Notes under the pieces: model-generated
Databases searched by the model: none
Told to the model about the DNA's origin: nothing
The model's input: the letters and a program-made list of their open reading frames with translations, nothing else
Position numbers and translations under genes: made by a program
Shown: positions 2 through 9,559 of the stretch, piece by piece
Layout of the letters: every line of letters begins with the position of its first letter
Numbering within the stretch: the stretch's first letter is position 1
From: Nitrospirota bacterium
GTDB taxonomy: Bacteria; Nitrospirota; Thermodesulfovibrionia; Thermodesulfovibrionales; SM23-35
NCBI GenBank assembly: GCA_029883145.1
Contig: JAOUJR010000035.1
Location: forward strand, 1-10,462
Length of the DNA stretch: 10,462 nt
Direction of reading: 5' to 3'

Positions 2-3000
2 TGGCCCACAACAAGCCGAACGGCCGAAACCCTGTTAGTTCGCGGTGAAGGGAGTGACGTGGTATTTCTGAACAGACTCCGACACAGGAATGACGCTCCA
101 CTCACTCTCCGTTTCCCGATAAGCGAACAAAGGCTCCTGGAAGAGATGGCAATTCATGGGAAGGAGGGGATAGTCGAAGGCATAGACTATCGAGGGGAAT
201 CGGTATTTGCTGTCTTACGAGCAGTCCATGATTCCCCGTGGTTTCTCATAGCAAAAGAAGACTTTGAGGAGGTCTATGAACTCATACACAGGGGGAACTG
301 GTTTATCGCAGCCGTAATGGTTCTGTCAATTCTTGCGTCATGCTTGGGCGTTGGACTCGTCTGGCGTCACCGGAGTGCACTGTTTTACCGAAGGGAGTAC
401 GAGATAGAGCATGAGCGCCGGGCTATAGCTCAGCGGTATGAATACCTATCCAGATATGCCAATGATATTATTCTGCTCCTTGATCAGGATTTGAGAATCA
501 TCGAAGCAAATGAGCGAGCAGTAGAGACTTACGGGTACACACTTGATGAGCTGCTGCACATGAGCTTAAAGGACTTACAGACTCCTGAGACACAATCAGT
601 TATCATTGCACAAATGAAAAAGGTGAGAGATCTCAAGGGAATGGTGTTTGAATCGTTACACCAATGGAAGGATGGAACACAGTTTCCTGTGGAAAATAGT
701 TCGCGGATTGTTGAAATTAATGGAAAGGAGTTTTATCAGTGCATCATTCGCAATATCACGAAGCGCAGGCAGGCAGAAGAGGCGTTACAGTCTCGAGCAG
801 AGTTCGAGAAACTTATCACTTCCTTCTCAACAAAATTCATTAATCTTTCATCCCATGAGATTGACAGCGGGATCCTTCATGCAGTGCAGACCATTGGCAA
901 GTTTATCAATGCTGATCGAAGTTACGTCTTTCTGTTTGATGAAAATGAAGATAAAATGATCAGCAAATATGAATGGTGCGCAGAGGGTATTCAGCCACAC
1001 AGTGAAAAACTCCAGGGACTGTCAGTCGGAGAGTTACTATGGTTGATGGTGAAACTCAACCGATTCGAAAATATTCATATGACATCTGTTGCAGACTTTC
1101 TCCCTGAGGGGAGCGCAGAAAAAGACATTCTGCACTTAGAGTCAATTCAGTCACTCATTGCTATTCCGATGGTTTCTGGTAACTCTCTTATCGGGTTTCT
1201 CGAATTCGATGCAGTGAAAACTGGAAAAATGTGGTCTACAGATATAATTACTTTACTCAGAATAGTAGGAGAAATATTTACGAATGCATTAAACCGTAAA
1301 CGAGCAGAAGATGTGCTGCGGGTGAGCGAAGAGAAATACCAAACGATTCTTGATACGGCAGGAATGGGGATATGTGAAATAGATCTGGAAGGAAAGGTCA
1401 CCTTTATCAATCCTGCTGGAGCAAAGATGTGCGGATATGAAATTCCTGAGCTGATCGGGAAGCATCTGCATAACACGCTGCACCATGCAAGACCAAATGG
1501 GTCTCCCTATGCCGAGCAAGAATGCCCCCATTATATATCGCTTATACAAGGAAATACTGCTGAGATAGTAAACGAGCTCTTCTGGAGGAAGGATGGTACG
1601 AGTTTCCCTGTCACGTGTATCAGTACTCCGGTAAAAATTCAGGATATGATAGATGGCGCAGTTTTAATATTCCGTGATAGGACTGCACGCAAAAAGTTAG
1701 AGGAGGCACTGTGGGAGAGTGAACAGAGATTGAAAAATATTCTCCATGGCTCTCCTATACCTGCGTTTGTTATTGACAAAAACCACAAAGTGCTGTTCTG
1801 GAATAAAGCACTGGAGCAACTCAGCGGTATCAAAGCCGACGTGATAACAGGTACAGACCATCACTGGAAAGCGTTCTATGATAAAGAAAGACCATGTATG
1901 ATTGACCTGCTGATAGACAATAGAAACGATATGATTCCACAGTGGTATAAGAGAAAATATATTCGATCTGTGTTGTTAGAGGATGCATATGAAGCTACGG
2001 ACTTCTTCCCTTCATTAGGGGTGAGAGGGAAATGGTTGCATTTCACAGGCGCAGTTATCAAAGATTCCACAGGAAATATTGTCTGTGGTTTGGAAACGCT
2101 CGAAGATATTACGGAACGCAAGCGTGCTGAGGAAGCGCTGATATTCTTAAAAGAGGCGATTGAAGCCCTGCCCATTGGCATTATTATTACTGATGTGAAA
2201 GGGAAGATTTTATATGCAAATCCATCCGAAGCAAGGATGCACGGCTACAAGTTGAAGGAACTCATTGGTAGGCATGTAAAAATACTTATTCCAAGGAACT
2301 ACTGGAGACCCCTGCTCTTTGAGCAGATAATGGGACATGAAATGGGGGTCTGGAAACGTGAGAGTGTTAATATCAGGGAAAACGGGGAAGCATTCCCCGT
2401 CCAGTTGACTTCGATTACCGTCAAAGATTCCGAAGGTGTTCCGATTGGGACGGTGGTAGCATGCGAAGACATTACCAAGCGCAAACAAGCCGAGGAAAAG
2501 CTGATTCAACGCCAGGAAGCGCTTTATTCTGTGTTTAAGATGGCCACAACTTTAGGCAGTTCTTTAAAAACGCTCTGTGGTAATATAGCCGTCATTTTGT
2601 CGAAACTCCTCCAGACTTCCCATGTCATAGTGCAGCAACACGATAATGGTAACGTTAAGGTTATTTCTTGTATGTTAGACGGAAAATTCGAGAGTGAAGA
2701 AGTAACCTGCCTTTCGAATTTTCAGTGTCTTTCTGGAGATAATGCCAATGAAGGGTGTTTACTGGAATGTTCTCTCGGTGATGCTTTCAAAAAGTATCCG
2801 TACGTGAGAGATGTCTTGAAAAGCTCAGTAAGTATTCCAATGTTAGATTCGTTGGCCAACATTATCGGTGCAATTACAGTTATCAACACAAAGGAGCGCA
2901 TCTTTACCGAAGACGAGGTTCGTCTGATAAAAATCTTTGCACAGTATATAGCATCCGAGATTGAAAAAAATGCAATGGAGATAAAACTTCGTAACGCTCA

Positions 3001-3679
3001 GAAAATGGAGGTTATCGGCACGTTAGCCGGAGGGGTTGCACATGAAGTCCGAAACCCTCTTAACGCCATTATGGTTATTGCAGAATCACTTGTTAAAGAG
3101 TTAGGGGAAAGCCCGGAATATCAGTTACTTCTTTCCCATATCCATTCACAGGTGAACCGGTTGTCATCACTAATGAATGAATTGCTCGATCTCGGAAAAT
3201 CAATTGAGCCATCCGATTTGCATGTTGAGTCTTTAAGTGAAATATGTTCTGCTACATTAGGTCTATGGAAGCATTCTGCCCTCAGCCATAGTCATAAGAT
3301 AAAATTACTTAAATCCCCGGAGTGTGATGATATCTTTGTAATAGCCAATAGTCAAAAAATCCAGCAGGTTTTTCTTAATCTTCTGGAGAATGCAGCCCAA
3401 CATGATCGCGAAGGCAATGAAATACTTTTTGTCATTAAGGAACCTGAAGGGGGCAGGTGTAGTATTCAAGTGGTTGATCACGGCACTGGTATTCCAGAAG
3501 AAATTTTGTCGAGGGTTTTTGAACCATTCTTTTCAACACGAAGAGGTGGTACCGGTTTGGGCCTGACTATTGTAAAATATATCGTAGAGACTCATGGAGG
3601 GAGTATCGTGGTTTTCAATAATACACCTCTCCCTGGTTGCACGGTAGAGGTTAAAATGCCAATTTATAGGAAGCAATAA
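2..3679 (+). CDS. Multi-sensor membrane histidine kinase (partial, 5' end missing)
   Basis: This is a sensor histidine kinase that should autophosphorylate and donate phosphate to the adjacent response regulators. The frame is open to the window edge. The 19 codons before the first GTG (position 59) read SRTAETLLVRGEGSD and continue smoothly into VVFLNRLRHR, which is the usual end of a periplasmic Cache-like sensor, so the true start lies upstream. Counting residues from position 59: sensor remainder 1-75, transmembrane helix about 81-101, PAS 125-243, GAF 249-420, PAS 422-551, PAS 552-694, PAS 695-814, GAF 820-968, HisKA 981-1045 with phospho-acceptor His995 in VAHEVRNPLNAI, and HATPase_c 1095-1206 with N-box Asn1111, G1 Asp1140 (DHGTGI) and G2 GGTGLGL from 1163. 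All catalytic motifs are intact. The second GAF has five clustered cysteines. The NtrC-type regulator begins 2 nt after the stop. The signal cannot be named. Confidence 0.93.
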   Translation, partial: WPTTSRTAETLLVRGEGSDVVFLNRLRHRNDAPLTLRFPISEQRLLEEMAIHGKEGIVEGIDYRGESVFAVLRAVHDSPWFLIAKEDFEEVYELIHRGNWFIAAVMVLSILASCLGVGLVWRHRSALFYRREYEIEHERRAIAQRYEYLSRYANDIILLLDQDLRIIEANERAVETYGYTLDELLHMSLKDLQTPETQSVIIAQMKKVRDLKGMVFESLHQWKDGTQFPVENSSRIVEINGKEFYQCIIRNITKRRQAEEALQSRAEFEKLITSFSTKFINLSSHEIDSGILHAVQTIGKFINADRSYVFLFDENEDKMISKYEWCAEGIQPHSEKLQGLSVGELLWLMVKLNRFENIHMTSVADFLPEGSAEKDILHLESIQSLIAIPMVSGNSLIGFLEFDAVKTGKMWSTDIITLLRIVGEIFTNALNRKRAEDVLRVSEEKYQTILDTAGMGICEIDLEGKVTFINPAGAKMCGYEIPELIGKHLHNTLHHARPNGSPYAEQECPHYISLIQGNTAEIVNELFWRKDGTSFPVTCISTPVKIQDMIDGAVLIFRDRTARKKLEEALWESEQRLKNILHGSPIPAFVIDKNHKVLFWNKALEQLSGIKADVITGTDHHWKAFYDKERPCMIDLLIDNRNDMIPQWYKRKYIRSVLLEDAYEATDFFPSLGVRGKWLHFTGAVIKDSTGNIVCGLETLEDITERKRAEEALIFLKEAIEALPIGIIITDVKGKILYANPSEARMHGYKLKELIGRHVKILIPRNYWRPLLFEQIMGHEMGVWKRESVNIRENGEAFPVQLTSITVKDSEGVPIGTVVACEDITKRKQAEEKLIQRQEALYSVFKMATTLGSSLKTLCGNIAVILSKLLQTSHVIVQQHDNGNVKVISCMLDGKFESEEVTCLSNFQCLSGDNANEGCLLECSLGDAFKKYPYVRDVLKSSVSIPMLDSLANIIGAITVINTKERIFTEDEVRLIKIFAQYIASEIEKNAMEIKLRNAQKMEVIGTLAGGVAHEVRNPLNAIMVIAESLVKELGESPEYQLLLSHIHSQVNRLSSLMNELLDLGKSIEPSDLHVESLSEICSATLGLWKHSALSHSHKIKLLKSPECDDIFVIANSQKIQQVFLNLLENAAQHDREGNEILFVIKEPEGGRCSIQVVDHGTGIPEEILSRVFEPFFSTRRGGTGLGLTIVKYIVETHGGSIVVFNNTPLPGCTVEVKMPIYRKQ

Positions 3680-3681
3680 CT

Positions 3682-5007
3682 ATGATGCCAAAGATACTAT
3701 TAGTTGATGACGAACCCGCAACACGGATTGGATTTGTGCGGTATCTTTCAAAGGCAGGCTATATAGTGGCGGAATCTTCGTGCCTTGCAGAAGCACGGGA
3801 AGCCATCATCTCACAACGGTTTCATGCCGTCATCCTTGACCTCATTTTGCCAGATGGCAATGGCATAGAGTGGATTGAAGATTTAAGAAAGACGTATCCG
3901 GACATAGCTATTGTCGTGATTACTGGTGCAGGCAATATCTCCACTGCGGTTGAGGCTATGCGCCGCGGCGCAGATAACTTTCTGACCAAGCCTGTAAACT
4001 TAGCTGAACTTGATGTATTTCTGCAAAAAAGTATCGAATTAGGGACACTGAGACGAAGAGATTCAACGTTTCAGCGTTTGAAGAAAAAAGTCAATCCTTA
4101 TTTTAGCGAAATCTCCACAATGAAAGAAGTTAAAAAACTTGCCGTATTGGCAGCGGAAAGCGATTCACCTGTGCTCCTTCAAGGAGAGACCGGAACAGGT
4201 AAGGGGGTATTGGCAAGATGGATTCATGAACAGAGTTCCCGTTGCTCTGGCCCCTTTGTAGAGGTAAATTGCTCAAGTCTCAGGGGCGAGCTTCTTGCCA
4301 GTGAACTCTTCGGGCACGTGAGGGGTGCCTTTACATCTGCTATCCAGGACAAACAGGGGCTCATTGAGGTTGCAGACAGTGGGACTTTATTCCTGGATGA
4401 GATAGGTGATATGGATTTTGCCGTTCAGGCTCAGTTCCTGAAAGTTGTTGAGGAGAAGTGCTACCGAAGGGTCGGAGAGGTCAAGGTAAGGAGGAGTGAT
4501 TTCCGTCTTATCTGTGCTACGAATAAGAACCTCCAGGAAGAAATACAGCAAGGCAAATTTCGTCAAGACCTTTATTTCCGGATTAACATTTTTCCTATTT
4601 CTATTCCTCCTTTGAGAGAAAGACTTGAAGACCTGACAGTGATTATCCAGGATATATTTACTGACTTAAGCTCATCTCAGAGCCAAATTCTCCCCAATGT
4701 AATCAAGCACTTGAGAAGTTACTCATGGCCTGGAAACATCCGCGAATTGAGAAATGTAATTGAAAGGGCACTTATTCTTGCACGCAATGGTTCATTAACT
4801 CCTGAATATTTCTTCGGCCTGGGGGCTTCTGCATGTCCTGTTGCTTCCAATAAAGGGAACATAACGGATTTGGAACGGTTTGAGGGGGAACATATTAAGG
4901 ACGTTATTAGAAATTTTGGTGGTGACAAAGAAAAAGCCGCAGAAGCGCTGGGAGTCTCACGAGCCACCCTCTACCGTAAGATGAAGAAAGGTAAACATAC
5001 TCTCTAA
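3682..5007 (+). CDS. Sigma-54-dependent NtrC-family response regulator
   Basis: This is a cytoplasmic enhancer-binding activator of sigma-54 RNA polymerase, very likely the partner of the kinase 2 nt upstream. The receiver domain (about 1-120) has the acidic pair in LLVDDEP, phospho-acceptor Asp53 (ILDLILPDG), the switch Thr in VVITGAG and the Lys in LTKPVN. The AAA+ domain (about 135-370) has Walker A GETGTGKG (168-175), Walker B GTLFLDEIGD (234-243; Asp239, Glu240), the FRQDLYFRINIF segment and the YSWPGNIRELRNVIERAL sensor region. A Fis-type helix-turn-helix closes the protein (about 415-436, AAEALGVSRATLYRKM). The length of 441 is normal for the family. The sigma-54 contact loop reads GAFTSA (215-220) rather than the usual GAFTGA. 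Two adjacent ATG codons open the frame, and either could be used. The convergent SQR operon carries a sigma-54 promoter and is a plausible target. Confidence 0.95.
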   Translation: MMPKILLVDDEPATRIGFVRYLSKAGYIVAESSCLAEAREAIISQRFHAVILDLILPDGNGIEWIEDLRKTYPDIAIVVITGAGNISTAVEAMRRGADNFLTKPVNLAELDVFLQKSIELGTLRRRDSTFQRLKKKVNPYFSEISTMKEVKKLAVLAAESDSPVLLQGETGTGKGVLARWIHEQSSRCSGPFVEVNCSSLRGELLASELFGHVRGAFTSAIQDKQGLIEVADSGTLFLDEIGDMDFAVQAQFLKVVEEKCYRRVGEVKVRRSDFRLICATNKNLQEEIQQGKFRQDLYFRINIFPISIPPLRERLEDLTVIIQDIFTDLSSSQSQILPNVIKHLRSYSWPGNIRELRNVIERALILARNGSLTPEYFFGLGASACPVASNKGNITDLERFEGEHIKDVIRNFGGDKEKAAEALGVSRATLYRKMKKGKHTL

Positions 5008-5056: not shown

Positions 5057-5416
5057 GTGAGAATTCTTGTAGTAGATGATGAACAAGCCTTCCTTTTTGG
5101 CTTAAAAAGAATTCTCAATGAACCGGAAATGAGCGTTGATACTGCTGAAACTTTTGAAGATGCCATAGACTTCCTGAGTAAAAAAACCTACGATGTTGTC
5201 ATTGCCGACGTGAGGCTTACTGGAGTCTTACAACAGGAAGGCTTGGCAATCCTCAGGATTGTAAAAAAGAATCAACCTCATACAAAAATGATAATAATAA
5301 CCGGATACGGTACTCCTGAAGTCATGCAAAAAGCATATGAATTCGGGGCAGACTATTATTTTGAGAAACCCATATCTACCCAAGTTCTCCTCAATACACT
5401 TAAAGAAATGAAATAA
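5057..5416 (+). CDS. Single-domain response regulator (CheY-like receiver)
   Basis: This protein of 119 residues is a receiver domain with no output domain. It shows the acidic cluster Asp7/Asp8 (LVVDDEQ), predicted phospho-acceptor Asp51 (VVIADVRLTG), switch Thr82 (IIITGYG) and Lys104 (YYFEKPIS), so it should be phosphorylatable. Its role may be as a phosphate sink, relay or interaction partner in the signalling block. An in-frame stop at 5024 and an AGGAG at 5041-5045 support the GTG start at 5057. The gene lies 49 nt after the NtrC-type gene on the same strand and may be co-transcribed. A small insertion (GVLQQEG) follows the Asp loop. The same kind of insertion is seen in stand-alone receivers of anaerobic, delta-proteobacterial style genomes (from memory of the family). 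Confidence 0.9.
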   Translation: MRILVVDDEQAFLFGLKRILNEPEMSVDTAETFEDAIDFLSKKTYDVVIADVRLTGVLQQEGLAILRIVKKNQPHTKMIIITGYGTPEVMQKAYEFGADYYFEKPISTQVLLNTLKEMK

Positions 5417-5539: not shown

Positions 5540-5560
5540 ACATCAAGTTTTACTTGATGT
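5540..5560. repeat. Perfect 9-bp inverted repeat overlapping the DUF1641 stop codon
   Basis: ACATCAAGT at 5540-5548 and ACTTGATGT at 5552-5560 form a perfect stem with a 3-nt loop. On the - strand it covers the last codons (TSSKT) and the stop of the DUF1641 gene. It may protect the 3' end of the mRNA or add to termination with the larger hairpin 11 nt further on. There is no U-tract. Confidence 0.5.
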
Positions 5561-6427
5561 GCCTTGTAAAGTTTCTGACAGAGAGAGCGACATATTCCTG
5601 GCAAATGCAGTCATTATCACCATTCCCTTGAGAACTTCCGGATCCCTCATGGCTGCGAAGATACCTTTTAATCCAGCCTTTGGTGGATTTGCTGTAATTT
5701 CTTGCATCGTTCGCACTGCGCATTTTTGTACGCCTATCATCATGCTATTCATCTCTTTAGATGAGAGTTGTTCCAGTGTGAAATCAAGGGTTCCGCTATT
5801 TTCAAAGCCGTTCAAAAAGGTCAGAAGTTTGTTGAAAGCATTTATATTTTTCCCCACGTTTTGTAAAAGATCAAGAACCTCCTCTTTCTCAAAGGATTCC
5901 CTGAGCATATTGATGCTCGGCAGCACTTCTTTGGTGATTCTCCCTACCGAGGGTTGCAGGTCTTCTACCAAGCCCTTTGCAACTTCCATCAACTCAAGGA
6001 GAGTTATAAATGTAGGGATGTTATCTCCGATCTTCTTAATAAGTATGAGGGTATCATCTTTTTCAAACCTTTCCCGCAATTCCCGGATAGTTGTATGAGT
6101 TTCCTTGGAGATCCTGCCTACTGCTGGTCCGACATCTGCAATCATACCCTTTGCAGATTCCATCAGATCAAGGAACTGCATAAAGGTAGGGATATTGTCT
6201 CCGACCTTTTTGATGAGCTTCAGCGTTTCATCTCTTTCAAACCTTTCCCGTAACTCCCCGATAGTTACACTAAGCTCTTTGGATATCCTCTCCAGAGCGG
6301 GGCTTAGGTCAATTACGAGATTGTTGATTAAACTAAATCTATTGTATATCTCGTCAATCTGTGCCGCCATTTTTCCATTATTGTTTGTCCCTGTAACCTT
6401 GTCTGTAACCATCTGCTCTTTATTCAT
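5543..6427 (-). CDS. DUF1641-domain protein with three 58-residue tandem repeats
   Basis: The protein has 294 residues, is mostly helical in appearance, and has no signal peptide or obvious membrane segment. After a polar N-terminus (1-36) come three consecutive 58-residue units (37-94, 95-152, 153-210). Each follows the pattern xxPxxxRIxKExxxxIxxLRExFEkdexLxLlkkvGdNIptF. The C-terminal part (about 245-285; GLKGIFAAMRDPEVLKGMVIMTAFARN) matches the DUF1641 signature of a short helical block built around DPEVxxG. DUF1641 proteins are known as neighbours of SQR-like flavoproteins and of some formate-dehydrogenase genes, and their biochemical role is unsettled. Here the gene is last in a - strand operon, 34 nt after the second flavoprotein gene, with a GGGAGGA ribosome-binding site. 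An accessory or scaffold role for the flavoproteins is inferred from context only. Confidence 0.85.
   Translation of the reverse strand: MNKEQMVTDKVTGTNNNGKMAAQIDEIYNRFSLINNLVIDLSPALERISKELSVTIGELRERFERDETLKLIKKVGDNIPTFMQFLDLMESAKGMIADVGPAVGRISKETHTTIRELRERFEKDDTLILIKKIGDNIPTFITLLELMEVAKGLVEDLQPSVGRITKEVLPSINMLRESFEKEEVLDLLQNVGKNINAFNKLLTFLNGFENSGTLDFTLEQLSSKEMNSMMIGVQKCAVRTMQEITANPPKAGLKGIFAAMRDPEVLKGMVIMTAFARNMSLSLSETLQGTSSKT
5798..6319 (-). repeat. Three in-frame 174-bp tandem repeats inside the DUF1641 gene
   Basis: The three coding units occupy about 6146-6319, 5972-6145 and 5798-5971. Exact nucleotide matches persist between units 1 and 2: the run TCAAACCTTTCCCG on the + strand recurs at 6063 and 6237, exactly 174 nt apart. 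Unit 3 is more diverged. This indicates duplication within the gene, with the unit 1/2 copy event being the more recent. Confidence 0.85.
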
Positions 6428-6461: not shown

Positions 6462-7619
6462 TTACAATAAGCCCTTGAGCATCATGTTCCAGTAAAGAGG
6501 TCTGAGCATGTTGACCTTGAGAACCCAGTTGAGATAACTTTCCGTAGCCGGAGACAAAGATTTTGTATAGTTGAAGTTTGCAAACAAAGCCCTCTTATCC
6601 CTGGTAAGGATCGGACATATTATTTCCCCATCATAAGTGGCTTTGGGCTCTTTACCAGCTAACAATGCTTTGAATCGTTCTGTTAATACCTTTGCCTGCT
6701 TCCTTGCACCCGAGGCTGTTTTAGATGTTGGAAAATCTGTCGCATCGCCAATTCCATAAATATTATCGTGATATTTGTTCAGCATGTGGTACTTATCGCA
6801 GGTTACCCATCCCGCGGCATCCCCTACACCGTCAGAGTTTTGAATCACATCGGCACCTTCATGTGGCGGCGTGATGCTGAGCAGGTCGAAATTGACTTCT
6901 TTTCCATCATAGCTCTTCATAACTCCTTTTTCATGGTCAACTTCCCCAGGGGCAAAGTTTGCAACTGTCTCGATTCCCCTCGACTCAAAGATACCATTCA
7001 ATGCTTCCATATAAGGATGTCTGGAAAAAGCTGATGGCAAAGGGGTAGTGAGTACAAATTTGAATTTGTTTCTTTTCCCCAGGTTTCTTATTGTGTCTTC
7101 TGCCATGAGGATGAACTTTATGGGTGCAGCAGGGCATTTTATCGGCATCTCACAGAATGTTGAGACAACCGTTCCACCATCACAGTTCTTAAGTGCATCT
7201 CTGAGTTTTAGAGCCCCGTCCATTGTATAAAAGGTATGGACGTTCTCCCCTTTTTTCAGGCCTTCCAGCATTCCCTCGGGCTCGCCCAAACTTAATTTTG
7301 CGCCTGTTGCAATAACAAGGTAATCGTATGCGATGTCGCCATGTTTTGTAGTAGAAATTGTGTTCTCCTTTGGGTTTATTTTTGTTGCTTCGTCTTGGAC
7401 CAGCTTTACATCTTCGTAGAACAACTCATTTGTGGGCTTGACTATATTTTCAGGTTCATCAAGATCGAAAACTAATAAGGTATAAGCTGGTTGGTAATGG
7501 TGTTTATCACTCTTTTCTATTACAGTAAGCCCTACCTGATTAGGAGTAAACTCCCTTCTCATTCTGTTGGCAAACATCACGCCGGCACTTCCTCCACCTA
7601 TGATCGCTACCTGTTTCAT
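6462..7619 (-). CDS. Sulfide:quinone oxidoreductase-like FAD flavoprotein (paralogue 1, promoter-distal)
   Basis: This is a two-dinucleotide-binding-domain flavoprotein of the SQR/flavocytochrome c sulfide dehydrogenase family, expected to oxidise sulfide or a related sulfur species and pass electrons to membrane quinone. The FAD-binding GGGSAGVMF is at residues 8-16, the YDYLVIATGAKL motif at 98-109, and IYGIGDATDFPTSKT at 287-301. Cys162 (KCPAAP) and Cys335 (IICPI) correspond by position and context to the redox-active cysteine pair of SQRs. Further cysteines are 146, 156 and 274, and the third cysteine near residue 128 seen in many SQRs is absent. The C-terminus (LNWVLKVNMLRPLYWNMMLKGLL region) looks like an amphipathic membrane-anchoring helix. 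There is no export signal, so it probably sits on the inner face of the membrane. It has a good AGGAGG 7 nt before the ATG. It follows paralogue 2 by 79 nt and precedes the DUF1641 gene by 34 nt. The exact SQR type and substrate are not determined. Confidence 0.87.
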   Translation of the reverse strand: MKQVAIIGGGSAGVMFANRMRREFTPNQVGLTVIEKSDKHHYQPAYTLLVFDLDEPENIVKPTNELFYEDVKLVQDEATKINPKENTISTTKHGDIAYDYLVIATGAKLSLGEPEGMLEGLKKGENVHTFYTMDGALKLRDALKNCDGGTVVSTFCEMPIKCPAAPIKFILMAEDTIRNLGKRNKFKFVLTTPLPSAFSRHPYMEALNGIFESRGIETVANFAPGEVDHEKGVMKSYDGKEVNFDLLSITPPHEGADVIQNSDGVGDAAGWVTCDKYHMLNKYHDNIYGIGDATDFPTSKTASGARKQAKVLTERFKALLAGKEPKATYDGEIICPILTRDKRALFANFNYTKSLSPATESYLNWVLKVNMLRPLYWNMMLKGLL

Positions 7620-7698
7620 TTTGCTTCCTCCTTTTAATTTAATTTGTTAGAAAAATTTACAGTGAACTCATTCCTGTTTCTTTTAATTCAATATCCCA

Positions 7699-8802
7699 CT
7701 ATATTAGGCCCTTGAGTATAAGGTTCCAGTAAAGTGGTTTTAGTTCATCGTAATTATAATGTGCAAACACAGACTTCTTATTTTTCGGGGAAATCGGACA
7801 TAATACTTCTGGTTTATAGGTAGCAGTAGGTTCCTTTCCCTCCAACACTGCCTTCATTCTATCTGTTAACACCTTAGCCTGTATTCTCGCACTTGTCATT
7901 GTTTTTGATGCTGGTACATCACTCGCATCGCCGATTGCATAAATGTTGCTGTAGTAGTTGCTGAGCAGGTGATACTTATCGCAGGTTACCCATCCAGCAG
8001 CGTCTCCCAGTTCTTCAGAGTCATGGATGACTTGTTCACCTTCATGGGGGGGTATGATGCAGAGCAAGTCAAAATTGATTTTTTTCCCATTGTAGCTCCT
8101 TACAACTCCGTTTTTATAATCCACTTCTCCTGGAGAAAAGTTGTTCACCACCCCTATTTCTTTTGAATCTAAAATACTGTTAAATTTTTCCAGATAGGGT
8201 TGATTTGGAATAACCGATTGCATAGGGGTGGAGAGTACAAATTTGAACTTGTTTCTTCTCCCGAACATTCTCATTGTATCTTCTGCCATGAGAATGAAAT
8301 TTATAGGCGCAGCAGGACATTTGATAGGGTTTTCAGAAGACATTGATACGATAGTTCCACCATCACAGTTCTTAATTGCATCTCTGAGTTTTAGGGCGCC
8401 ATCCATTGTATAGAAGGTAAAGACACCTTCACCTTTGTTGAGACCTTCTTTCATCCCCGCAGGTTCGTCAAAATTTAATTTAGCACCGGTTGCAACAATG
8501 AGATAGTCATAAGAGACTGCTCCATGTTTGGAAGTAGTTACCGTATTATTTTTCGGGTTTATTCTTGTTGCTGAATCTGTAATCAGATTCACACCTTCAT
8601 AAAACAAATCCTTTGTCGGCCTCACCACATCTTCACCTTCATCCAGACCAAAAGCTATTGATGTGAATGCTGGCTGAAAATAATGTTTGTCACTCCTTTC
8701 AATTACCGAGAGTTCCACTTCGTCTTCAGTGAAATCTCTTCTCATTCTGTTGACAAACATCACGCCAGCACTTCCTCCGCCTATGATCACTATCCGTTTC
8801 AT
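7699..8802 (-). CDS. Sulfide:quinone oxidoreductase-like FAD flavoprotein (paralogue 2, promoter-proximal)
   Basis: This is a tandem paralogue of the next gene, aligning without gaps over roughly the first 345 residues (33 of the first 50 are identical). It keeps the FAD motif GGGSAGVMF (8-16), YDYLIVATGAKL, IYAIGDASDVPASKT, and the redox cysteine pair Cys162 (KCPAAP) and Cys335 (VLCPI), plus Cys146 and Cys274. Differences include Ser at position 156 where its partner has Cys, Cys248, RIQAK in place of RKQAK after the GDA motif, and a C-terminus about 18 residues shorter that still ends in a similar hydrophobic segment (LKPLYWNLILKGLI). The predicted role is membrane-associated oxidation of sulfide or a related sulfur compound with quinone as acceptor. 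It is the first gene of the - strand operon, with AGGAGG 7 nt before the ATG and a sigma-54-type promoter about 75 nt upstream. Whether the two paralogues differ in substrate, or form a heteromer, cannot be read from sequence. Confidence 0.87.
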   Translation of the reverse strand: MKRIVIIGGGSAGVMFVNRMRRDFTEDEVELSVIERSDKHYFQPAFTSIAFGLDEGEDVVRPTKDLFYEGVNLITDSATRINPKNNTVTTSKHGAVSYDYLIVATGAKLNFDEPAGMKEGLNKGEGVFTFYTMDGALKLRDAIKNCDGGTIVSMSSENPIKCPAAPINFILMAEDTMRMFGRRNKFKFVLSTPMQSVIPNQPYLEKFNSILDSKEIGVVNNFSPGEVDYKNGVVRSYNGKKINFDLLCIIPPHEGEQVIHDSEELGDAAGWVTCDKYHLLSNYYSNIYAIGDASDVPASKTMTSARIQAKVLTDRMKAVLEGKEPTATYKPEVLCPISPKNKKSVFAHYNYDELKPLYWNLILKGLI

Positions 8803-8809
8803 TTTGCTT

Positions 8810-8815
8810 CCTCCT
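8810..8815 (-). promoter_or_regulatory. Ribosome-binding site of SQR paralogue 2, duplicated before paralogue 1
   Basis: A consensus AGGAGG lies 7 nt before the ATG. The same leader, including the 7-nt spacer and start codon, occurs before paralogue 1 (AGGAGG at 7627-7632). The identical run of 22 nt covers 8796-8817 and 7613-7634. This shows that the gene duplication carried the translation signal with it. Confidence 0.8.
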
Positions 8816-8887
8816 TTCCCTTCTCATCGGTAAACGTATGCTTCTGATTTAAATATGTAATGAAATTTATTCTTTAATAAAGGATTA

Positions 8888-8903
8888 AGCAAAAGATATG
8901 CCA
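8888..8903 (-). promoter_or_regulatory. Sigma-54 (-24/-12) promoter of the SQR-SQR-DUF1641 operon
   Basis: On the - strand the sequence is TGGCATATCTTTTGCT. This matches the sigma-54 consensus TGGCAC-N5-TTGC at TGGCA and TTGC, with GG and GC separated by exactly 10 nt and the preferred T after the -12 element. The predicted start is near 8877, giving a leader of about 75 nt to the ATG at 8802. An NtrC-family activator encoded in this window could act here. Confidence 0.75.
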
Positions 8904-8914
8904 TAATAGCATAT
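8896..8914. promoter_or_regulatory. ATATGC-N7-GCATAT palindrome overlapping the -24 element
   Basis: Perfect 6-bp arms are separated by 7 nt, centred just upstream of the -24 element of the sigma-54 promoter and partly covering it. A protein bound here would block or bend the promoter, so it is a candidate operator for the divergent MerR-type regulator. It could also be chance in AT-rich DNA. Confidence 0.35.
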
Positions 8915-8962
8915 AGCGAAAAATACTAATTTATCAAAGTGTTACGTTAAAAAAAAAGCAGG

Positions 8963-9004
8963 AGATTCTCATTTATTCAAACACAGTCTCAAAAATGAGA
9001 ATCT
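8963..9004. promoter_or_regulatory. 12+12-bp inverted repeat; candidate upstream activator site
   Basis: AGATTCTCATTT (8963-8974) and its exact reverse complement AAATGAGAATCT (8993-9004) are separated by 18 nt. The inner part also contains TCTCA-N4-TGAGA (8987-9000), and a further TGAGA occurs at 9035. Relative to the predicted sigma-54 start near 8877 the repeat spans about -86 to -127, the usual place for an enhancer-binding protein site. It also lies about 85-125 nt upstream of the predicted MerR-gene start. It could alternatively form an RNA hairpin, but no gene transcript is expected to end here. Confidence 0.55.
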
Positions 9005-9051
9005 TTTCTAAATTGAGTTGAGCGAAAGTTGTGATGAGACAATTCGAGGAG

Positions 9052-9080
9052 TTGAAAATTTTCTTTAAAGATAGTTTAAT
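9052..9080 (+). promoter_or_regulatory. Sigma-70-like promoter of the MerR-type gene
   Basis: TTGAAA (9052-9057) and TTTAAT (9075-9080) are separated by 17 nt, each one or two mismatches from the -35 and -10 consensus. The predicted start is near 9087, about 30-40 nt before the likely start codons at 9119 or 9125. The 17-nt spacer is normal, unlike the 19-20-nt spacers of classic MerR-activated promoters, so activation of this promoter by DNA twisting is not suggested. Confidence 0.5.
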
Positions 9081-9118
9081 AAAGCAAAATCAGAATTTGA
9101 GGATATCTTATAAGTGAA

Positions 9119-9559
9119 GTGAAGATGAAAACAGAATTAATAAAAGAAAAAGAAAAAAGAGATATGCCTCTCTATACAATAGGGGTTATTGCTGAATTGA
9201 TCGGTACCACAACCCAGACAGTGCGCATATATGAAAAACGTGGTCTGATAAAACCGTCACGCAAAAAGAAGAACAGATTCTACTCTGAGAATGACCTCAG
9301 ATGGCTCCTTTGTTTGAGAGAGTTAGTCCATGATAAAAAGATCAGCATTGAGGGCATAAAAAAGCTTCTTCATTATGCTCCATGCTGGGAAATTACAATG
9401 TGCACTGAAGAAAGAAAGAATAAATGCCTGTCATTTATCGACAGAGTAAAGCCATGCTGGGAGATTAACCGGATGATATGCAGCAATAGTAAATCACGCA
9501 ATAGATGCGAAGAATGTGTAGTGTTCACATCACAGACAAAACTTGCCAAGAAAAGTTAA
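9119..9559 (+). CDS. MerR-family transcriptional regulator with cysteine-rich CW tail
   Basis: The N-terminal winged helix-turn-helix (about residues 18-64; LYTIGVIAELIGTTTQTVRIYEKRGLIKP) is MerR/HspR-like. Instead of the long dimerisation coiled coil of classic MerR proteins there is a short helix (about 70-86) and then a cysteine-rich tail made of two similar units: APCWEITMC...C (Cys89, 95, 103) and KPCWEINRMIC...C..C (Cys113, 121, 130, 133). Cys65 lies in the DNA-binding part. The seven tail cysteines suggest a metal, Fe-S or thiol redox sensor. It is transcribed divergently from the SQR operon and is a candidate regulator of that operon or of itself. The start is uncertain: GTG at 9119, ATG at 9125, or ATG at 9164, which gives the family-typical MPLYTIGV beginning. 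The extra N-terminus is lysine-rich and has only a weak GAGGA 15 nt before the GTG. Confidence 0.85.
   Translation: MKMKTELIKEKEKRDMPLYTIGVIAELIGTTTQTVRIYEKRGLIKPSRKKKNRFYSENDLRWLLCLRELVHDKKISIEGIKKLLHYAPCWEITMCTEERKNKCLSFIDRVKPCWEINRMICSNSKSRNRCEECVVFTSQTKLAKKS

Follow-up and report, generated by a model that had tools for sequence, protein, structure and literature searches.

A predicted sigma-54 promoter and candidate activator sites for a neighbouring two-component regulator upstream of a sulfide:quinone reductase operon in a Nitrospirota bacterium

The DNA analysed here (the window) is a stretch of 10,462 nucleotides from a Nitrospirota bacterium, contig C254 (JAOUJR010000035.1) of a draft genome of 2.23 Mb that is 86.6% complete. 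It carries a kinase-activator-receiver module that converges on an operon for two sulfide:quinone reductase (SQR)-like proteins and a DUF1641 protein, with the following features:

2 to 3679, + strand: sensor histidine kinase (PAS, GAF, HisKA, HATPase), truncated at its 5' end by the contig start
3682 to 5007, + strand: NtrC-type response regulator with receiver, sigma-54 activation domain with GAFTSA, and Fis-type HTH
5057 to 5416, + strand: stand-alone receiver-domain protein (REC)
5543 to 6427, - strand: DUF1641 protein, 294 aa
6462 to 7619, - strand: SQR2, sulfide:quinone reductase-like flavoprotein, 385 aa
7699 to 8802, - strand: SQR1, sulfide:quinone reductase-like flavoprotein, 367 aa, 18 residues near the C-terminus missing
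8888 to 8903, - strand: predicted -24/-12 sigma-54 promoter, TGGCATATCTTTTGCT, GG at 8902-8901 and GC at 8890-8889
8963 to 9004, no strand: 12-bp perfect inverted repeat with 18 nt between the arms, spanning both activator sites
8965 to 8971, - strand: putative upstream activator half-site 2, TGAGAAT, 20 bp from the right half of site 1
8985 to 9002, - strand: putative upstream activator site 1, ATTCTCA-N4-TGAGACT (spacer TTTT), from a relatives-only model and geometry
9119 to 9559: MerR-family gene with a MerR-type HTH, divergent from the SQR operon

SQR1 and SQR2 both match the pyridine nucleotide-disulphide oxidoreductase families. Their best NCBIfam match is the selenoprotein subtype of type III SQR (NF049943), for which 343.7 and 315.4 bits fall below the cut-off of 525. 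With a profile of ten relatives, mitochondrial sulfide:quinone oxidoreductase ranks first among solved structures (255 bits), and Cys-162 and Cys-335 (SQR2 numbering), which we take to be the catalytic pair, do not vary among 10 proteins and line up with cysteines of the mitochondrial enzyme. The two proteins thus combine kinship to known SQR with conserved redox cysteines, and the operon product is likely to oxidise sulfide. SQR at E ≤1e-90 was found in 21 of 176 genomes of the order, with two matches in the own genome only. SQR1 and SQR2 are sisters in the tree (support 99/98), which points to a duplication within this lineage. The 18 residues absent near the C-terminus of SQR1 are present in the other nine aligned SQRs, and the SQR1 branch is longer than the SQR2 branch (0.34 vs 0.19), so that the function of SQR1 may have diverged. 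Elsewhere in the tree, another genome of the same order (G113) and Candidatus Magnetobacterium casense have identical SQRs. With SQR1 alone as the query, no relative was found among the genome contigs; an alignment was the query in the later scan.

The protein encoded at 3682-5007 has the receiver, the sigma-54 activation domain and the Fis-type HTH of an NtrC-type regulator, together with the variant loop GAFTSA and the Walker motifs GETGTGK and LFLDE. Its first 130 residues contain one cysteine, and 49 nt separate its gene from the receiver gene. The first-pass annotation had described this activator as encoded with its kinase and convergent to the SQR operon, and we find the same arrangement. 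A full-length orthologue of the truncated kinase exists in the same genus (L119:2022-6737, genome G001), with a dCache-like region that scores 41.5 bits (cut-off 45). The sigma-54 activation domain has 13 matches in the own genome (ten full-length, one partial and two weak), which encodes sigma-54 itself as well.

The sigma-54 promoter consensus is TGGCACGNNNNTTGCW, and TGGCATATCTTTTGCT differs from it at two positions. This 16-mer precedes the SQR1 start (8802), and with it the SQR1-SQR2-DUF1641 operon, by 86 nt; it lies outside every ORF of at least 90 aa and has the GG-N10-GC cores and near-consensus context of a sigma-54 promoter. Its position, strand and spacing relative to the operon are as the first-pass annotation had given them, and transcription is expected to start near 8877, a position derived from the motif. 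The promoter score was reached once when the intergenic strand was shuffled 5000 times and 15 times when the whole window was shuffled 300 times; because of the latter figure, the 16-mer alone is only moderately significant. TGGCAY-N5-TTGCW has 18 matches in the own genome, compared with none for the reversed pattern and six for N6 spacing, and nine of the 18, including the one before SQR, lie outside ORFs of at least 90 aa. Matches to sigma-70 promoters showed no excess in 8700-9200 (2 found vs 2.0 expected), and TTGACA/T does not occur within 350 nt of SQR1.

Upstream of the promoter, the inverted repeat at 8963-9004 is unique in the genome with up to 3 mismatches allowed, and its arm length of 12 bp was reached in 2 of 300 shuffles of the gap. 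The first-pass annotation had passed over this repeat, as well as the stand-alone receiver protein and the divergent MerR-family gene. Counted from the T of TGGCA, the right half-sites stand at -88 and -68, and the left half-site, like that of G003 (a genome from the same family), stands at -99. A palindrome model built from relatives only gives site 1 a score of 21.4, the best in the window; the next score, 9.1, falls inside the same repeat. The other 17 motif sites of the genome score at most 6.6, the upstream regions of SQR in 20 relatives at most 4.9, and none of 20000 random 220-nt stretches of own-genome loci reached 21. The SQR promoter therefore appears to have an upstream activator site. 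The repeat was also considered as a terminator, a reading that we do not favour: it lies between divergent genes, and a terminator scan of 8700-9200 found none.

The sites recur beside orthologues of the activator. At E ≤1e-120 the activator was found in 18 of the 176 genomes, the own genome included, and of the remaining 17 we examined its surroundings in 12. All 12 have a kinase ahead of the activator, and 11 of them, G081 being the exception, have a receiver protein after it. In ten of the 12, the gap between activator and receiver holds TGGCAY-N5-TTGCW; all ten gaps are at least 183 nt long, and the motif is oriented away from the activator. It is absent from the gaps of G001 (50 nt) and G081 (54 nt to the next ORF); the 54-nt stretch of G081 contains TTCTCATTCTGAGAAT. 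With the window left out, the 7-mer that recurs most often ahead of the ten promoters is ATTCTCA (seven of ten regions), and in 200 shuffles no 7-mer occurred in more than six; this count is the one measure independent of the window, where the model seed TGAGAAT was first noticed, and some of the relatives compared are close kin. Right half-sites stand at -89/-69 in G003, G019, G018, G009 and G013 (degenerate in G018 and G009), at -94/-73 in G015 and at -68 in G024, and none were found in the gaps of G016, G006 and G175. The site model scores 24.05 in three gaps, 18.7 in two and at most 13.3 in five. The stretch SRATLYR of the recognition helix is kept in 11 of 12 aligned activator orthologues; G016 differs, and its gap is without a clear site. 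Nine other activators of the own genome with a readable helix differ from SRATLYR. The first-pass annotation had tied the SQR promoter to the neighbouring activator by proximity, and the tie is now strengthened by the same half-sites in the same geometry beside orthologous activators and by the conserved helix. The binding site of this uncharacterised Nitrospirota sigma-54 response regulator may be deduced as ATTCTCA-N3-4-TGAGAAT, with halves repeated about 20 bp apart.

A wider search of the 176 genomes for TGAGAAT-N45-75-TGGCAY-N5-TTGC gave 21 rows that represent 20 distinct promoters in 13 genomes, compared with 1 for the reversed control. Of the 18 genomes with the activator, 7 (the own genome included) have the pattern, as do 6 of the 158 without it (Fisher p = 4e-5, uncorrected for kinship). 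Thirteen of the 20 places are in activator genomes, and seven are in genomes without an activator at the threshold used. Five of the 13 precede a receiver gene, one precedes SQR and three precede isochorismatase-like genes, two of these confirmed by Pfam. Another two are in G013 and G019, the former before a PilZ gene; one, on contig C325 of the own genome, has a single half-site and stands before a gene that is lpxC-like by eye; and for the last, in G102, no downstream gene was found.

In genus g12 (G019, G013; L253, L254, L255), genes for isochorismatase-domain proteins follow -24/-12 promoters that carry stacked ATTCTCA/TGAGAAT repeats, which indicates that the module has other targets in that genus. 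Within the own genome, TTCTCA-N3-4-TGAGA gave 8 rows at 5 places (reversed control, 4 rows). Apart from SQR, four places remain: at one, a weak -24/-12-like match (12 of 15.1) lies no more than 200 nt away and inside an ORF, and at the other three that distance contains no such match. By eye, a second element of GGCAATATGCC/GGCAAATTGCC-like palindromes about 20 bp apart lies upstream of eight own -24/-12 sites (L034, L036, L039, L040, L043, L047, L048 and L049), and since these share an element of another kind, they may form a second sigma-54 regulon. Pfam identifies a sulphur transporter (L036), a cytochrome P460 (L043), a methyltransferase (L034) and an M48 peptidase (L048) downstream of these sites; the protein downstream of L040 has a multicopper oxidase match below the cut-off.

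The SQR genes of relatives are preceded by promoters of another kind. Loss of the motif from orthologous intergenic regions was to refute the proposal of the first-pass annotation, and both the sigma-54 promoter and the activator site are indeed absent upstream of SQR in all 20 relatives; but these are genomes of the order from other genera, and in 19 of the 20 the 350 nt before SQR contain TTGACA or TTGACT instead. The best GG-N10-GC match within 160 nt of an SQR start scores 11.1 in the 20 relatives, compared with 14.6 in the window. Two genomes of the same family, G003 and G019, have SQR and the module on separate contigs, with site scores of -1.7 and 3.8 upstream of SQR. Closer still is G001, a genome from the same genus, in which the module faces, at the edge of a contig, the end of a convergent DUF1641 gene (81% over 69 aa). 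The contig breaks before the SQR genes, the SQR region is unassembled, and SQR was not found in the assembly. At the DNA level, window positions 7500-9150 matched nothing significantly in G001 or G002, the best E being 0.127, and G002 has neither SQR nor the module at the thresholds used. From the 20 relatives without the promoter and the 19 with TTGACA/T, it appears that an existing module captured the operon in a lineage-specific manner, and sigma-54 control seems to belong to this lineage rather than to the SQR family.

Sigma-54 control as a general feature of SQR was rejected, because a -24/-12-like match in up to 300 nt upstream occurs at 9 of 80 named SQR-like loci, a frequency similar to that in random stretches (407 of 4000). 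The highest of the 80 scores belongs to a gammaproteobacterial SQR-like locus (L219), with TGGCCTGAACCTTGCA 56 nt before the SQR-like match; FisR-type control is possible there.

Three other explanations of the SQR promoter region were weighed. One accepts the sigma-54 promoter and assigns it to another activator of the own genome, the location of the module being incidental. The 13 activation-domain matches supply candidates, and the module also occurs in genomes without this SQR. We nevertheless consider this explanation improbable, as the sequence and spacing of the SQR site match the promoters beside the orthologous activator, another upstream element is common to eight further promoters of the own genome, and the SRATLYR type is distinct from the nine other readable helices. 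Still less probable, in our view, is regulation by the divergent MerR-family protein with the inverted repeat as its operator. Its gene borders the same gap as the operon, and the protein has, besides the MerR-type HTH, a C-terminus that is cysteine-rich by eye. However, MerR orthologues (E ≤1e-15) are present in 126 of the 176 genomes and SQR in 21, the six relatives examined have the MerR gene beside NamZ in two cases and beside SQR in none, and the repeat matches the sites of the activator; both genome distribution and gene context thus disfavour MerR as the SQR regulator. The best matches of this MerR-family protein are HspR-like models, below their cut-offs.

The -24/-12 motif could also be a chance match, with the operon transcribed from a different promoter. 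The whole-window shuffles that equalled the score of the 16-mer, and the TTGACA/T upstream of SQR in 19 of 20 relatives, leave some room for this. Against it, SQR1 is without TTGACA/T within 350 nt and without a sigma-70 excess, and promoter, half-sites and spacing jointly match the module promoters of relatives, which by the site-model controls is not a matter of chance. We give this explanation the least credence of the three.

Taken together, the motif, the sites, their geometry, the synteny and the contrast with relatives, all read from the sequence, make it probable that the SQR operon is under a sigma-54 promoter activated by the neighbouring two-component NtrC-type regulator. In such a scheme the kinase (2-3679) would sense a signal and phosphorylate the response regulator (3682-5007), which would bind two sites 20 bp apart at 8965-9002. 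Once phosphorylated, the regulator would act as an ATP-driven activator through a DNA loop, its GAFTSA loop would contact the sigma-54 polymerase, the promoter would open, and SQR1-SQR2-DUF1641 would be transcribed from 8888-8903. The stand-alone receiver might compete for phosphate, which is a guess. Binding by the regulator, its phosphorylation, the activation and the sulfide oxidation by the product are the steps that we infer.

The module in relatives appears to act on the receiver gene that belongs to it; in genus g12 it seems to feed PilZ and isochorismatase-domain proteins too. Many genomes have the module without this SQR, and its older role was therefore presumably something else. The receiver promoter of relatives is of the same build, and in the window the equivalent promoter stands before the SQR operon instead. 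We propose, with confidence evenly divided for and against, that in one genus the conserved module captured a sulfide-oxidation operon: a sigma-54 promoter, its two activator sites arranged in the module geometry, would have taken the place of a sigma-70-type one, the receiver promoter would have been lost, and sulfide oxidation would answer to an extracytoplasmic signal through a dCache/PAS kinase, not to intracellular persulfide. The locus would then be a sequence-level case of an operon that apparently switched sigma-factor class, with an identifiable donor regulon.

Work on FisR and sqr in Cupriavidus pinatubonensis was reportedly published by Li et al. in 2017. FisR is a sigma-54 activator of the sqr operon in Acinetobacter baumannii (PMC7315123), and is named as such in a further paper (PMC12170894). 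The suggestion in the first-pass annotation that sigma-54 control of SQR is unusual was therefore too strong, since such control by FisR is in print (PMC7315123). Like the activator here, FisR is a sigma-54 activator with an AAA+ domain encoded beside an SQR operon, which it activates (PMC7315123). As described in the excerpted accounts, FisR is a single-protein sulfide/persulfide-responsive activator divergent from its operon, whose cysteines matter in Cupriavidus and are not conserved in A. baumannii (PMC7315123). By that description it is set apart from the activator here, which has a receiver domain, a partner kinase, a convergent orientation and one cysteine in its first 130 residues; the Pfam receiver domain and the adjoining kinase are found in the window and likewise in each of the 12 relatives examined.

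Two-component systems for sulfur oxidation are also known. TspS/TspR of Acidithiobacillus caldus is a sigma-54 two-component system for sox-II with a palindromic site (PMC6335251). According to the excerpted text it controls Sox, with thiosulfate as the proposed signal and TGTCCCAAATGGGACA as the UAS, whereas the operon here is SQR and the sites are ATTCTCA/TGAGAAT. NreBC of Bacillus licheniformis shares with the present case a two-component system encoded beside SQR and activating it (PMC9918477); it has a sulfide-sensing PAS kinase, the repressor YrkD also acts, and the excerpt of that paper does not mention sigma-54. A search of titles and abstract openings in the open-access literature found no sigma-54 two-component system acting on sqr. 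The type of control is thus known, and the combination and the evolutionary route are new relative to the literature searched. If the proposal is true, a two-component sigma-54 route would join the known controls of sulfide oxidation.
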